Shown in pieces: positions 20,688-32,194 of a DNA stretch of 39,714 nucleotides. The stretch covers positions 1-39,714 of the forward strand of contig NZ_ALWB01000020.1 in NCBI RefSeq assembly GCF_000332215.1. The letters run 5' to 3'. Under the pieces are notes generated by a model, which was not told where the DNA came from, did not search any database, and saw nothing but the letters and a program-made list of their open reading frames with translations. Position numbers and translations under genes: made by a program. The stretch is from Pseudanabaena biceps PCC 7429. Lineage in GTDB: Bacteria > Cyanobacteriota > Cyanobacteriia > Pseudanabaenales > Pseudanabaenaceae. Positions within the stretch are counted from its first letter, which is position 1; each line of letters opens with the position of its first letter.

Positions 20688-21480
20688 CGATTTGTTCGCG
20701 TCCTAAATATACTTCAATTACTTTGGGATTTGATTGCACTTCACTGACTGACCCTTCAGTCAATTTTTCTCCTTGATGGAGTACCACAATGCGCTGAGCA
20801 ATTTGCTTAACAAATTCCATGTCATGCTCGATAACCACAACAGAGTGATTCTGAGAAATCGTTTTAATGATTTCCCCAGTCAAATGCGTTTCATCTGGGG
20901 TCATTCCTGCAGTGGGCTCATCTAGTAGTACTACAGAAGGATCCTGCGCAATGACCATCCCAATTTCTACCCACTGTTTCTGTCCGTGGGAAAGCGAGGA
21001 TACTTTTGAATATCCCTTTTCCAAAAGTCCAACGCGATCGAGAACAGTGATGATTTTATCCCTCTTAGCTGCGGTTAATTTGGACTTGATCGAAGAGAAA
21101 ACTCCATGCGATCCTTTTAAAGCTAATAAGATATTGTCAAATACGGTTAACTCATTGTAGACATTAGGATTTTGGAATTTACGTCCGATGCCCATCCTTG
21201 CTACTTCAAAAGCACTGCGATTCGTAATATCTTTACCGTGATAAAATACATGCCCCGAAGCTACTGGAGATTTACCAACGATGGCATCGAGTAAGGTGCT
21301 TTTCCCAGCCCCATTCGGACCAATGATCGTCACAATCTCATTTTCACCGACATCTAAGTTAACTCCCTTTAAAGCTTTGAATCCAGAAAAAACCACCTTT
21401 AGGTCTTTTATCGATAAAATTGCTCCTTCAGTGTGAGTAACTGGAGCGGAATCAATTGATGCGGATGTGGTTGTGTTCAT
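20677..21480 (-). CDS. urtD: Urea ABC transporter ATP-binding protein UrtD
   Basis: This 267-residue LivG-like ATPase pairs with UrtE. Walker A GPNGAGKST is at about residues 54-62, signature SLSHGQKQWVEIG at about 162-174 (the Q-W variant typical of UrtD), and Walker B VVLLDEPTAGM at about 182-192. It starts with about 20 polar residues before the core. AAAGGG lies about 10 nt before its ATG. The gap to urtC is 120 bp. Confidence 0.94.
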   Translation of the reverse strand: MNTTTSASIDSAPVTHTEGAILSIKDLKVVFSGFKALKGVNLDVGENEIVTIIGPNGAGKSTLLDAIVGKSPVASGHVFYHGKDITNRSAFEVARMGIGRKFQNPNVYNELTVFDNILLALKGSHGVFSSIKSKLTAAKRDKIITVLDRVGLLEKGYSKVSSLSHGQKQWVEIGMVIAQDPSVVLLDEPTAGMTPDETHLTGEIIKTISQNHSVVVIEHDMEFVKQIAQRIVVLHQGEKLTEGSVSEVQSNPKVIEVYLGREQIDAA

Positions 21481-27160: not shown

Positions 27161-27213
27161 AAACCGAAGGAGAGAAGTTTGGCGCAAAGCGCCAAACTTC
27201 TCTCCTTCGGTTT
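27161..27213. repeat. Family C-like palindrome, perfect 25-bp stem
   Basis: A perfect 25+3+25 inverted repeat has arm AAACCGAAGGAGAGAAGTTT, short apex GGCGC-AAA-GCGCC and closing CGGTTT. The arm ends (AAACC...GGTTT) are shared with other copies while its middle is unique. Confidence 0.85.
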
Positions 27214-27314
27214 AAGACATGAATGCATTTGGCGATGGCTATAAAAATAAGAATGCTAGGATATTCACATTGCGAGCCGAATAAACTGTATAAATTGATG
27301 CATAGATGCATATT

Positions 27315-27418
27315 TAAGTAGCTAGGCGCAATTAAATATAAAATCCCAAAACCTGTAGCGCACACTGTGCGTGCGCTACAGGTTTTGATTCTGGGTTTTA
27401 ATTATGCCCAACTACTTA
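27315..27418. repeat. Family A element (104 bp) with the CTGTAGCGCAC hairpin
   Basis: TAAGTAGCTAGGCGCAATTA and TTATGCCCAACTACTTA ends match other A copies. The centre is CCTGTAGCGCAC / GTGCGCTACAGG instead of the GCATACCGCCC hairpin. It lies about 35 bp upstream of ureD. Confidence 0.85.
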
Positions 27419-27451
27419 GTGATTTAATTTGTTGGCTAGATAAATTGTCAA

Positions 27452-28300
27452 ATGATCAGATCAATAGATGACTGTATGTATAAACCATGGACTGGAAACT
27501 TAGAACTAAAGTTTAGTAGGAGAGATTTATCAACTCAGTTGATTTACAATTATGCTTTAGCTCCGTGGAAAATACAGCGATCGCTTTATCCAGAAGGAGA
27601 GGAAGTTTGCCATTGCGTTCTATTGCATACCGCAGGTGGTTTAGTGGGTGGCGATCGCCTATCTGCCAAAATCCATCTTCAACCCTATACCCAAGCCCTG
27701 ATCACGACTGCCGCCGCTAGTAAGGTCTATCGCAGTTCTGGTGCGGAATCTTGGCAAAATATCCATATTCACATTGATGAAGGCGCAAATTTGGAATGGT
27801 TCCCTCAAGAGACGATCGCCTTTGCCGAATCAAAGTATCGACAAACTACGAGAATTGAGTTAGCGCCAGATGCAACTATTACTATGTGGGAAATCGTTAG
27901 GTTTGGAAGGACGGCACGGGGTGAAAAATTTCTCGATGGTAATTGGCGATCGCATACTGAGGTATGGCGAGACCAAAGCCCTTTGTGGATTGATCGGCAA
28001 TATCTGCATGGAAACCCTGAAATGTTAGATAGTCCGAATGGATTAAATGCCCATGCGATCGCCGCTAGTTTCATTTTTGTAGGAACAACGGTAGAACCCG
28101 AACTGATCGATCGTATCCGCTCTACTTGGGAAGAGGGAAATTATCAAGGGAAATCAAGCGTTACGCGATCGCTTGCAGGTTTAGTTTGTCGCTATTGCGG
28201 TGACTCCTCTGGCGATGCGCGTAAATGGTTTCAGCAAATTTGGCAGCTTTTGCGTGTATCCTATAGAAATAGAAAGATATGCGTACCGAGAGTTTGGTAA
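27452..28300 (+). CDS. ureD: Urease accessory protein UreD
   Basis: UreD (282 residues) is the scaffold that binds apo-urease and recruits UreF and UreG. LHTAGGLVGGDRLS (about 58-71) and TTAAASKVYRSSG (about 85-97) are the family hallmarks. The C-terminus VPRVW is typical, so the gene is complete. The start may be the ATG at 27476 (MYKPWTGNLELKF), which would remove eight residues; no Shine-Dalgarno decides. The last codons recur 61 bp downstream as a 21-bp direct repeat flanking a hairpin, which looks like an insertion footprint. It is the first gene of ureDA-Uma2-ureBC. Confidence 0.95.
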   Translation: MIRSIDDCMYKPWTGNLELKFSRRDLSTQLIYNYALAPWKIQRSLYPEGEEVCHCVLLHTAGGLVGGDRLSAKIHLQPYTQALITTAAASKVYRSSGAESWQNIHIHIDEGANLEWFPQETIAFAESKYRQTTRIELAPDATITMWEIVRFGRTARGEKFLDGNWRSHTEVWRDQSPLWIDRQYLHGNPEMLDSPNGLNAHAIAASFIFVGTTVEPELIDRIRSTWEEGNYQGKSSVTRSLAGLVCRYCGDSSGDARKWFQQIWQLLRVSYRNRKICVPRVW

Positions 28301-28361
28301 GCTTTTAATTTTGGCTTTGCCAAAATTAAAAGCTAATTAAATGCGTACCTAGAGGTTGGTA
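28279..28361. repeat. Hairpin insert flanked by a 21-bp direct repeat at the ureD stop
   Basis: ATGCGTACC-x-AGAG-x-TTGGTA occurs at 28279-28299 and 28341-28361 with two mismatches in 21. Between them a 41-bp insert holds a perfect hairpin, AGCTTTTAATTTTGGC-TTT-GCCAAAATTAAAAGCT (28300-28334). The first copy encodes the end of UreD (CVPRVW-stop). The second would encode CVPRGW-stop, so it is a duplicate of the gene end. Confidence 0.75.
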
Positions 28362-28368
28362 GATATTC

Positions 28369-28671
28369 ATGCAACTTACGCCCCAAGAAAAAGATAAACT
28401 ATTGATTTTTACGGCTGCATTATTAGCTGAGCGTCGTAAAGCTAAAGGTTTGAAGTTAAATTATCCCGAAGCGATCGCGTTTATTACTGCGGAGATTTTG
28501 GAAGGAGCAAGGGAAGGTCGCACGGTTGCCGAGTTAATGTCCTACGGGGCGACTTTGCTCAGTCGTGATGATGTGATGGAAGGCATCTCCGAAATGATTC
28601 ATGATGTGCAAGTAGAAGCAACTTTTCCCGATGGTACAAAATTAGTTACCGTACATAATCCTATTCGCTAA
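28369..28671 (+). CDS. ureA: Urease gamma subunit UreA
   Basis: The 100-residue small subunit of urease matches the standard length. [41 protein letters not shown] and [20 protein letters not shown] are near-universal. It lies 68 bp after ureD with a hairpin in the gap. It is followed not by ureB but by a Uma2 gene. With UreB and UreC it forms the trimeric nickel enzyme that hydrolyses urea to ammonia and carbamate. Confidence 0.98.
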
Positions 28672-28691
28672 TTCAGCTATGGAGGTTTGAG

Positions 28692-29312
28692 ATGATGGCG
28701 ATCGCTAAAGTTCAAGATTCACAAACTAAATCAAAGCTGACCTATGAAAAATTCGTCAATCTGCGGCTTACCGACGGACGCTATGAATTTGTTAATGGAG
28801 AAGTCGTTAAAGTGGTAAATACTAGACAGCATGAAGATGTTGTTGCGTTCGTTTATAAAAAATTTGATCGAGAAATTGATAGATTAAATTTGGATTTTGT
28901 GGTGCGTCAAAATGTGAGCATTAGGACTATAGCTAATAGTGATAAACAGAGTAGAGTACCAGATTTGAGTGTGATTGACAGGGAATTTTGGCAATCTAAT
29001 CCATCTGATTATGCCCCATTGCAAAAAACGATTCAGTTAGCAGTAGAAGTCACCTCAACTAATTGGGATGATGACTACATTGACAAATTTTCAGAATATC
29101 AAAGTCTTGGTATTCCCGAATATTGGATTGTGGATTATTTAGCGATCGCTAGTCGTGAATGTTTAGGTAATCCCAAAATCCCCACGGTGTTTGTTAATTT
29201 ACTAAATGAAAATGGTAAATATCAAACAACTAGATTTACAGGAGATGACAAAATTATTTCGCAGACTTTTCCTGAACTAGATTTAACTGCTGCTCAAATT
29301 CTCAACATCTAG
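28692..29312 (+). CDS. Uma2 family endonuclease-fold protein inside the urease operon
   Basis: The 206-residue PD-(D/E)XK-fold protein carries the family core SRVPDLSVID (about 93-102), LAVEVTSTNWDDDYIDKFSEY and LGIPEYWIVD (about 116-150), with E-x-T, K and the closing YWIVD intact. A strong GGAGG lies 6 nt before its ATG, and it is on the same strand as ureA and ureB with gaps of 20 and 51 bp. It therefore should be cotranscribed. Urease has no need for a nuclease, so this is most likely a late insertion. Its AT content is higher than ureC. The role is not known. Confidence 0.88.
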   Translation: MMAIAKVQDSQTKSKLTYEKFVNLRLTDGRYEFVNGEVVKVVNTRQHEDVVAFVYKKFDREIDRLNLDFVVRQNVSIRTIANSDKQSRVPDLSVIDREFWQSNPSDYAPLQKTIQLAVEVTSTNWDDDYIDKFSEYQSLGIPEYWIVDYLAIASRECLGNPKIPTVFVNLLNENGKYQTTRFTGDDKIISQTFPELDLTAAQILNI

Positions 29313-29363
29313 GATGTAGTGCGAAACGCTACACCCTCATTAAGTAACAATGGAGATGAATCT

Positions 29364-29675
29364 ATGATTGTTGGTGAAATTATTACTCAAGAAGGTGATA
29401 TCGAATTGAACGCTGGGCGAGAGGTGGTTACGCTCAAGGTTGCAAATTCAGGCGATCGCCCCATCCAAGTTGGTTCGCACTATCACTTTTATGAAACCAA
29501 TCGCGCATTGATCTTTGATCGCGATCGCGCCAAAGGTACGCACCTTGATATTCCTGCGGGGACTTCCATCCGCTTTGAGCCTGGAGATGAGAAGGATGTG
29601 AATCTCGTTCCCTATGTGGGTACTCGCGAGATTTATGGATTTAATGCTTTAGTAGAAGGCAAATTGGAGAATTAA
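29364..29675 (+). CDS. ureB: Urease beta subunit UreB
   Basis: The 103-residue beta subunit begins [20 protein letters not shown] at the ATG 29364, supported by GGAG 8 nt upstream and by the universal N-terminus. A GTG 45 bp upstream is rejected because it adds residues not found in the family. [18 protein letters not shown] and [18 protein letters not shown] are conserved. ureC starts 4 bp after its stop. Confidence 0.97.
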
Positions 29676-29679
29676 ACGA

Positions 29680-31392
29680 ATGAGTTACAGAATGTCCCGC
29701 CGCGCCTATGCAGAAACCTATGGTGCAACCGTTGACGATAAGGTTCGCTTAGCCGATACCGAATTGTTTATTGAAGTGGAACGCGACTACACCACCTATG
29801 GGGATGAAGTCAAATTTGGTGGCGGGAAAGTAATCCGCGATGGTATGGGACAGTCACCGATTACCAATGCCAATGGAGCAGTGGATCTGGCGATTACCAA
29901 TGCCCTGATTCTCGATTGGTGGGGCGTGGTCAAAGCCGATGTGGGGATTAAAGATGGCAGGATTGTGGCGATCGGTAAAGCGGGAAATCCTTACATTCAA
30001 GATAACGTCAATATCATTATCGGTGCAGGTACGGAAATTATCGCAGGAGAAGGACGCATTCTTACCGCAGGGGGTATTGATACCCATATTCATTTCATCT
30101 GTCCGCAACAGATCGAAGTAGCGATCGCTTCTGGTATTACAACCATGATTGGTGGTGGTACGGGGCCTGCGGTCGGCACAAATGCCACGACTTGCACCCC
30201 TGGACCTTGGAATATGTACCGCATGTTGCAAGCCGCCGATGCCTTCCCGATGAATTTGGGCTTTCTCGGCAAAGGCAATAGCAGCAAGCCTGAAGGCTTG
30301 GTCGAACAGGTGGAAGCAGGAGCGATCGGACTCAAACTCCATGAGGATTGGGGAACGACTCCCGCTACGATCGATACTTGTTTGGGTGTTGCCGATGAAT
30401 ACGACGTACAGGTTGCTATCCACACGGATACACTGAACGAAGCAGGATTTGTAGAAGATACGATCGCCGCTTTTAAGAATCGCGTGATCCATACCTATCA
30501 CACCGAAGGCGCAGGTGGCGGTCACGCTCCCGATATCATCAAAATTTGTGGTGAAGCGAACGTTCTCCCTTCTTCCACAAATCCTACTCGTCCCTATACC
30601 TTAAATACTTTAGACGAACACCTCGATATGCTGATGGTCTGTCACCATCTCGATCCTAGTATTCCTGAAGATGTTTCTTTTGCCGAATCAAGAATCCGTC
30701 GTGAAACGATCGCTGCTGAAGATATTCTTCATGATATCGGCGCATTTAGTATGATTTCCTCTGACTCGCAAGCAATGGGAAGAGTTGGCGAAGTAATTAT
30801 CAGAACTTGGCAAACCGCTCACAAAATGAAAGTGCAGCGAGGCGTTCTCTCTAGTCCCGAAATCACCAGAGCCGACAATTTCCGTGCTCAGCGTTATGTG
30901 GCAAAATACACGATCAATCCTGCGATCGCCCATGGTATCTCCGAATATGTCGGTTCTGTTGAAGTGGGCAAAATCGCCGATCTAGTGCTGTGGCATCCTG
31001 CATTTTTTGGCGTAAAACCCGAAATGGTACTTAAGGGAGGCTTCATCGCATGGTCGCAGATGGGCGATGCGAATGCCAGTATTCCCACGCCGCAACCAGT
31101 CTATATGCGTCCGATGTTTGGCAGCTATGGCGGTGCGATCGCGCCTACATCCTTTACTTTTGTTTCTCAAGCTGCTATGGAACGAGGTATTCCTAGTCAA
31201 TTAGGTTTGAAGAAGCAGGTACTAACAGTTAAAGGAACCCGTAATATTAGCAAACGCGACTTAAAGCTCAATGATGCTTTGCCAGTGATGGAAGTAGATC
31301 CAGAGACCTATGAAGTTCGTGCTGATGGCGAATTATTGACCTGTGAGCCTGCGTCAGTATTGCCGATGGCTCAGCGATATTTCTTGTTTTAA
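29680..31392 (+). CDS. ureC: Urease alpha subunit UreC (catalytic)
   Basis: The 570-residue catalytic subunit hydrolyses urea at a dinuclear nickel centre. The ligands are all present: H136 and H138 (DTHIHF), the carbamylated lysine K219 (GLKLHEDWG), H248 ([10 protein letters not shown]), H274 ([15 protein letters not shown] region) and D362 ([12 protein letters not shown]). The mobile flap carries C321-H322 in MVCHHLD. The length is standard. The stop codon TAA (31390-31392) is the first triplet of a family A repeat. Confidence 0.99.
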
Positions 31393-31493
31393 GTAGCTAG
31401 GCATAAGTAAACTTAAAACCTAGAAGAGCATACCGCCCGCGTAGCGGGCGGTATGCTCTCTGGTTTTGGTTTTTAATTATGCCGAACTACTTA
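31390..31493. repeat. Family A element (104 bp) beginning at the ureC stop codon
   Basis: TAAGTAGCTAGGCATAAG to GCCGAACTACTTA, with the AGAGCATACCGCCCGC / GCGGGCGGTATGCTCT hairpin. Its first three bases are the ureC stop. Confidence 0.88.
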
Positions 31494-31510
31494 GAACTTC
31501 TAACCCTATA

Positions 31511-32088: not shown

Positions 32089-32194
32089 TAAGTAGTTCGG
32101 CATAATTAAAAACCAAAACCCAGAAGAGCATACCGCCCGCTGCGCGGGCGGTATGCTCTTCTAGGGTTTAAGTTTACTTATGTCTAGCTACTTA
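32089..32194. repeat. Family A element (106 bp) abutting a family B element
   Basis: TAAGTAGTTCGGCATAATTA to TATGTCTAGCTACTTA, with the AGAGCATACCGCCCGC hairpin. Its right-end TTA overlaps the first bases of the B element TACAGC. Confidence 0.85.

Follow-up and report, generated by a model that had tools for sequence, protein, structure and literature searches.

Proteins of the Uma2/DUF820 family adopt a restriction-endonuclease fold, for which solved structures are available (Foldseek, structure entries), and genes of this family have been reported within or next to metabolic operons of cyanobacteria. As far as the accessible portion of the paper goes, the DUF820 gene sll1222 of Synechocystis separates hoxEF from hoxUY within the hoxEFUYH operon and is treated together with a neighbouring toxin–antitoxin module (PMC4963859), so a DUF820/Uma2 gene inside a metabolic operon is a situation with published precedent. 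Excerpts of two further papers place ORF17, a DUF820 reading frame, next to hoxW in Lyngbya (PMC2674450) and describe an expansion of Uma2 genes in Thermosynechococcus (PMC9403480), and the accessible part of PMC6737895 contains no mention of an inserted nuclease. In the literature searched, which lay mostly outside subscription journals, we found no account of Uma2 in urease clusters or of an exchange of its N-terminal block, no description of a block-wise conflict in the N-terminal half of Uma2, no tested function for any Uma2 protein and no paper naming the PADLOC model PDC-S03.

The window—the whole stretch of 39,714 nucleotides analysed here, from the 5.47 Mb genome of Pseudanabaena biceps PCC 7429—places a Uma2 gene in a urease cluster. 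On the + strand, the gene order is ureD, ureA, Uma2, ureB, ureC, with gaps of 68, 20, 51 and 4 bp (ureB start set at ATG 29364 for gap measurement). The features are:

27452..28300, + strand: ureD, UreD accessory protein (PF01774, E 3.2e-61)
28369..28671, + strand: ureA, urease gamma subunit (PF00547, E 4.7e-47)
28681..28685, + strand: GGAGG ribosome-binding site of Uma2, 6 nt 5′ of the ATG (sequence)
28692..29312, + strand: Uma2 family PD-(D/E)XK nuclease gene, 206 aa (PF05685, E 5.1e-31; PADLOC PDC-S03, E 1.3e-66; Foldseek)
28734..29030, + strand: N-terminal type-bearing block, residues ~15-113, type A in the window copy (pN/pS, fixed differences)
28962..28964, + strand: codon of the presumed catalytic D91 (PD motif), invariant in 22/22 copies
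29031..29309, + strand: constant C-terminal block, residues 114-206 (pN/pS, fixed differences)
29046..29048, + strand: codon of the presumed catalytic E119, invariant in 22/22 copies
29085..29087, + strand: codon of the presumed catalytic K132, invariant in 22/22 copies
29311..29337, + strand: possible RNA hairpin in the Uma2–ureB spacer, beginning at the Uma2 stop (a like hairpin in 12/21 genomes)
29364..29675, + strand: ureB, urease beta subunit (PF00699, E 1.6e-45)
29680..31392, + strand: ureC, urease alpha subunit (PF00449 and PF01979)

Coordinates and Pfam matches agree with the preliminary description, which had a co-directional Uma2 gene with a GGAGG site between ureA and ureB, at gaps of 20 and 51 bp, and the placement is not a chance one, as the same junction is occupied in 21 of the 24 genus genomes with ureA and ureB. 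GGAGG precedes 21 of the 22 full-length urease-site copies, and GGAGA the second copy of genome G027. A crude scan of the + strand from 28301 to 29679 returned no terminator-like or promoter-like pattern (promoter-like sites were fewer than in shuffles), which fits, if weakly, co-transcription of Uma2 with the urease genes. Most likely, Uma2 is carried on the urease transcript, with a GGAGG site of its own serving its translation.

The Uma2–ureB spacer possibly holds an RNA element. A hairpin like that at 29311-29337 folds in 12 of 21 genomes, the window included; in the remaining genomes, the spacer is virtually absent (three cases) or has different hairpins or none. Across nine of the 12 genomes, three pairs changed on both sides, a count reached by 31 of 500 shuffles, and the covariation score was reached by 93 of 500. 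Covariation is thus not clearly above shuffles, in a window rich in perfect palindromes, and the hairpin is at most a possible conserved RNA. The window contains 20 distinct perfect palindromic hairpins (stem of at least 11, loop of 3 to 7), including those at 1928-1978, 2656-2710, 2754-2796, 27161-27213, 28300-28334, 31425-31459 and 32122-32162; several share sequence, for example those at 31425 and 32122. In addition, a 107-bp direct repeat (70% identical, 27313-27419 and 31388-31494) flanks the ureD–ureC cluster on both sides. The Rfam family RF02514 (5′ ureB sRNA) gives a 119-bit antisense match within ureC (29835-30121, - strand), which may reflect merely coding conservation. Upstream of the cluster, a UrtD-like ABC ATPase above the curated cut-off is encoded at 20698-21420 on the - strand, and a search of the same genome for UrtE at 1e-95 gave no match.

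Across Pseudanabaena, UreA and UreB were each matched in 24 of 26 genomes (G015 and G031 are without both). A full-length Uma2 gene fills the ureA–ureB gap in 21 of these 24, with two copies in G027 bringing the total to 22. The three others retain ureD, ureA, ureB and ureC: in G010, an in-frame deletion has left a 59-codon reading frame with the start and end of Uma2; in G011, a scar retains the ribosome site, start and 3′ flank; and G030, whose ureB is the most divergent in the genus (87%), shows no trace. Uma2 was thus present early in the genus, and at least two losses followed, with different deletion ends in G010 and G011. Identity to the window protein is 58-100% among urease-site copies; genus copies elsewhere, among the matches listed, reach at most 56%, bar a 77-residue fragment at 60% in G029. 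Two control junctions were compared in these related genomes, so that the trials are not independent, and one of them comes from the single other operon considered, that of the urea transporter: urtD–urtE gaps measure 38-208 bp in all 13 genomes, of 26 searched, in which both genes were found at 1e-95, and ureD–ureA gaps measure 6-133 bp, with no cargo, in 24 of 24. Two near-identical genomes have ureD matches with an in-frame TAA (G012:C153:46803-47639 and G013:C1:769844-770680).

Beyond the genus, Uma2 does not appear to be conserved at this site: judged from their reading frames, 21 long ureA–ureB gaps of other genera include no Uma2, and among 80 related loci from named genomes (flanks of up to 3 kb), the four at urease all correspond to genus genomes (G008, G024, G025, G019). 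Adjacency of ureA and ureB, taken as the normal state in the preliminary description, holds for cyanobacteria in part. Among 51 pairs from outside the genus (within 3 kb on one contig, paired by eye), 29 have a gap of at most 111 bp and 22 a gap of 163-2735 bp, which are not unbiased rates, since the pairs were drawn from the best ~150 listed matches for each protein (335 and 329 of 388 genomes had a match); among the matches listed, ureA and ureB are widely separated or on separate contigs in at least 15 further genomes.

The window protein scores 107.9 bits against PF05685 (curated cut-off 27), and a search with NCBIfam profiles gave no match. Its structure model (pLDDT 79.7, pTM 0.78) supports a restriction-endonuclease-like fold: nine Foldseek matches at 0.001 or better cover 9y1l (putative restriction endonuclease domain, E 1.3e-10), 3ot2 (DUF820, E 1.2e-9), 1wdj (TT1808, E 7.7e-8), 6okh (uncharacterised, within the same range of 1.3e-10 to 7.7e-8) and 3ijm (restriction endonuclease-like). 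D91, E119 and K132, to which we assign a presumed catalytic role from the family motif, are invariant in the 22 urease-site copies and present in at least 90% of 51 Uma2 proteins; H47, E32 and G36 are likewise invariant in 22 of 22. The protein is a presumptive nuclease.

The urease-site copies are kept intact, in line with the preliminary description. All 22 are open at 206-219 aa, and no interrupted full-length Uma2 occurs in the ureA–ureB gaps of the 24 genomes; under neutral simulation, 5.6% of copies remain open at 0.1 and 0.4% at 0.2 substitutions per site. Within types (see below), pN/pS of the N block is 0.14 (A) and 0.15 (B), as against ~0.04 for ureA and ~0.08 for ureB (Nei–Gojobori proportions, medians of pairs, here and below), so Uma2 is under purifying selection, less constrained than the urease genes yet clearly constrained. 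A close relative lacking the gene, with Uma2 in decay, had been named beforehand as the sign of a neutral passenger; this state is confined to G010 and G011, so Uma2 is dispensable but not neutral. Away from urease, G029 has a broken Uma2 of the same subfamily (G029:C1:3324546-3325138, one TAG and a frame break): some paralogs decay while the urease-site copies do not.

The gene itself falls into two parts with different histories. Residues ~15-113 form three types, named here by motif as A (8 copies), A′ (3) and B (11), and from residue 114 onwards all copies are similar. In the model, the variable block comprises a long helix (45-64), a strand (69-72) and D91, and the constant block E119, K132 and the remaining core. 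In comparisons of A with B, median pN and pS are 0.386 and 0.761 (the latter near saturation) for the N block, and 0.071 and 0.471 for the C block. As ureB and ureA of the same strains show a pS of 0.465 and 0.549, the C block diverges about like the urease genes. All 25 fixed A/B differences lie within residues 18-111 and none in the C block. The pair G018 (A) and G020 (B) illustrates the pattern, with nucleotide identities of 91% in ureA, 59% in the N block, 94% in the C block and 97% in ureB.

Trees built for 16 of the 21 genomes conflict accordingly. In AU tests, the N-block data reject the C tree (p 4.8e-5) and the urease tree (2.8e-5), the C-block data reject the N tree (4.4e-54) and the urease tree (1.8e-7), and the urease data reject the N tree (2.2e-4) and the C tree (8.1e-10). 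Type changes number at least six on the urease tree, five on the C tree and two on the N tree; with shuffled labels, the urease tree takes a mean of 6.7 changes, and 38% of 2000 shuffles need six or fewer, so the types switch on this tree about as often as shuffled labels, no fewer times than expected. G016 groups with G032 and G029 in the N tree (support 94), whereas the C tree and the urease tree place it beside G008 (84 and 100), a conflict that points to transfer. The C block is not strictly vertical in descent either: its tree conflicts with that of urease, and it shows a lower pS within type A (0.305) than ureB (0.464) and ureA (0.552) do, so that portions of it seem to have travelled as well. 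Fast evolution of the N half in place of exchange was rejected, as pN within types is alike in the N block (0.071 for A, 0.085 for B) and the C block (0.051 and 0.070). In other cyanobacteria, too, the C half of Uma2 is better conserved than the N half; this general tendency does not explain the types, since the two blocks are conserved to much the same degree among copies of one type.

We favour, with a probability of roughly one half, a retained candidate defence nuclease of restriction-like kind in the urease operon, whose N block has been exchanged by recombination. Uma2 would have entered the ureA–ureB junction early in the genus and then been kept as a working gene, possibly active against phages. 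A constant C block holding E119 and K132, two of the residues presumed to be catalytic, would be joined to alternative, old N types, and recombination between strains would replace the N block, perhaps altering what is recognised. Counted against this reading, besides the breadth of the candidate label PDC-S03 (see below) and the conflict of the C block with the urease tree, are the deletion of the gene in two genus genomes and its traceless absence from a third. Paralogs elsewhere may have donated N blocks. A recent donor in the window's own genome was sought and rejected: among 48 of its 60 Uma2 copies, the best match to the C block of the window copy is 52%, and its N-block matches span 84-89 residues at 23-31% or 35 residues at 40%. 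A second locus of the same subfamily is shared in the genus (L103-L104, L106-L114): in 11 of 12 copies retrieved, Uma2 is accompanied by one or both of the same pair of neighbours, L105 of G017 being situated at a different place. The helix of this second Uma2 alternates as well, reading FDREIDRLNL or FDREVERLSL versus KDEVKRLQL.

An ancestral tandem pair is the strongest competitor, albeit an unlikely one. Here, A and B would have lain side by side, with crossing-over removing one N block per lineage and no transfer between strains. G027 does have A′ and B in tandem between ureA and ureB today, and crossing-over would retain the flanks and the C block, as in G018 and G020, so that such a pair could mimic part of the apparent exchange. 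Yet the arrangement persists in one of 21 genomes, though at least six changes would each require its survival until then, and the placement of G016 in the N tree versus the C and urease trees suggests transfer.

That Uma2 has been domesticated for urease, regulating or assisting the enzyme or nickel metabolism, we consider improbable. Its residence has been kept in the genus, and the hox parallels would fit: the Synechocystis operon encodes a NiFe-hydrogenase, another nickel enzyme (accessible portion of PMC4963859), and the Lyngbya ORF17 adjoins hoxW (excerpt of PMC2674450). However, the window's own genome has 60 Uma2 matches, 58 of them above the family cut-off, and replacement of the N block would be odd for a urease partner, as would the absence of Uma2 from G010, G011 and G030, which keep all four urease genes.

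Slightly less plausible still is a self-mobile element, homing- or transposon-like, copying itself into operon junctions. The high copy number just mentioned and the expansion in Thermosynechococcus (PMC9403480, as excerpted) could be taken that way, but among the 48 best-scoring of the 60 copies, no shared flanks or ends were seen by eye, no close sister copy was present (best C-block match 52%) and only four were tightly sandwiched between co-directional reading frames as called by a rough ORF caller; a transposon or homing element was rejected on the missing shared ends. The window itself has a second Uma2 gene of a different subfamily (2012-2671, + strand; PF05685 match at 2084-2542, 42.8 bits). 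Least probable of all is the neutral passenger raised in the preliminary description, an inert gene that landed between ureA and ureB, recently or with its loss yet to come: the remnant in G010, the scar in G011 and the empty junction of G030 speak for it, but 21 of 24 genomes carry the gene, and all 22 copies are open, constrained and invariant in the motif despite a median pS of 0.56 in ureA and 0.49 in ureB, which leaves this reading disfavoured.

Uma2 is not the only cargo of urease clusters. In the genus, ureB and ureC are separated by 6-10 bp between match ends in 19 of 24 genomes. In G021, G011 and G009, a protein of 207-212 aa is encoded between them, the G021 protein matching Pfam HSDR_N (7.9e-5, just below the cut-off) and PADLOC PD_DExK (2.5e-8). 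In G026, an AAA_21 ATPase (PADLOC HEC-01A, 2.1e-41) and a 239-aa partner (HEC-01B, 6e-4) are packed tightly before ureC; this cluster (L115) thus reads ureD–ureA–Uma2–ureB–AAA ATPase–239 aa–ureC, so that defence-like genes alternate with the urease subunits; its final three genes lie no more than a couple of bases from one another. In G019, ureC is on a separate contig, and a co-directional 742-aa reading frame (HTH, NACHT, NCH2) follows 514 bp past ureB.

Outside the genus, the 21 long ureA–ureB gaps read (one more, in G337, was left out) contain an S41 peptidase in seven cases (by Pfam for the G277 copy, by resemblance for the others). Four gaps, all from one other family, contain an AAA ATPase, for which the G256 copy matches HEC-01A at E 8.8e-59; a DUF4276-type gene accompanies it in two of the four, a fragment in one and neither in one. 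Models of AAA ATPases are permissive, with 125 and 127 families matched. Single gaps hold a 66-aa gene paired with a ParE-like one, a DUF1963 gene, a 609-aa reading frame and a reverse-strand cupin gene; two hold unknown reading frames of 224 and 212 aa, and four have none of 100 aa or more. No PADLOC match was obtained for the S41, DUF1963, two unknown and both ParE-like pair proteins. Such variety suggests that the site takes many kinds of genes, several of them defence-like, a pattern rather than a measured enrichment, the sets being small, related and drawn from the best-listed matches.

A broader and more doubtful view, which we offer tentatively, would make the urease cluster a landing place for candidate immune genes at ureA–ureB and ureB–ureC, with Uma2 as a switchable immune allele. 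Genes would settle there co-directionally, leave urease unbroken and be transcribed along with a nitrogen operon, and exchange of the N block would change the target recognition of Uma2. As a case, the cluster has candidate defence genes inside a core metabolic operon, not in islands. A Uma2 gene that 21 of 24 genomes keep at a single site, and that comes in old alternative N types, constitutes a natural experiment for block function.

How, then, does this locus compare with known systems? With the Uma2/DUF820 proteins of solved structure (3ot2, 1wdj, 6okh, 9y1l), the urease-site proteins share the profile, fold, PD...E...K motif and length; what sets the urease-site clade apart is that its N-terminal half, at a fixed locus, shows histories that conflict from block to block. 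PDC-S03, a label that we take to denote a candidate single-gene phage defence, matches 22 of 22 urease-site proteins, but the label is that of a candidate only and covers Uma2 broadly, since, in an alignment of 51 Uma2 proteins to which these 22 belong, at least 31 match one of its models at 1e-20. The candidate defence pair HEC-01 (AAA ATPase and DUF4276) shares the landing place and is unrelated in protein: an ATPase of the HEC-01 kind occupies ureA–ureB in four genomes from a single other family, with the second gene intact in two, and a comparable pair is found between ureB and ureC in G026. Sll1222, as far as the accessible portion of its description goes, is likewise a DUF820 gene embedded in an operon of metabolism; the operon is another one, and the urease-site Uma2 usually stands alone, is found through most of a genus and has its allele types mapped. 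A parallel in organisation comes from type I restriction systems, in which the target-recognition domains of HsdS are exchanged: there, too, a restriction-like protein combines a constant frame with an exchangeable block, although the sequence of Uma2 is unrelated and a role of its N block in specificity is putative.
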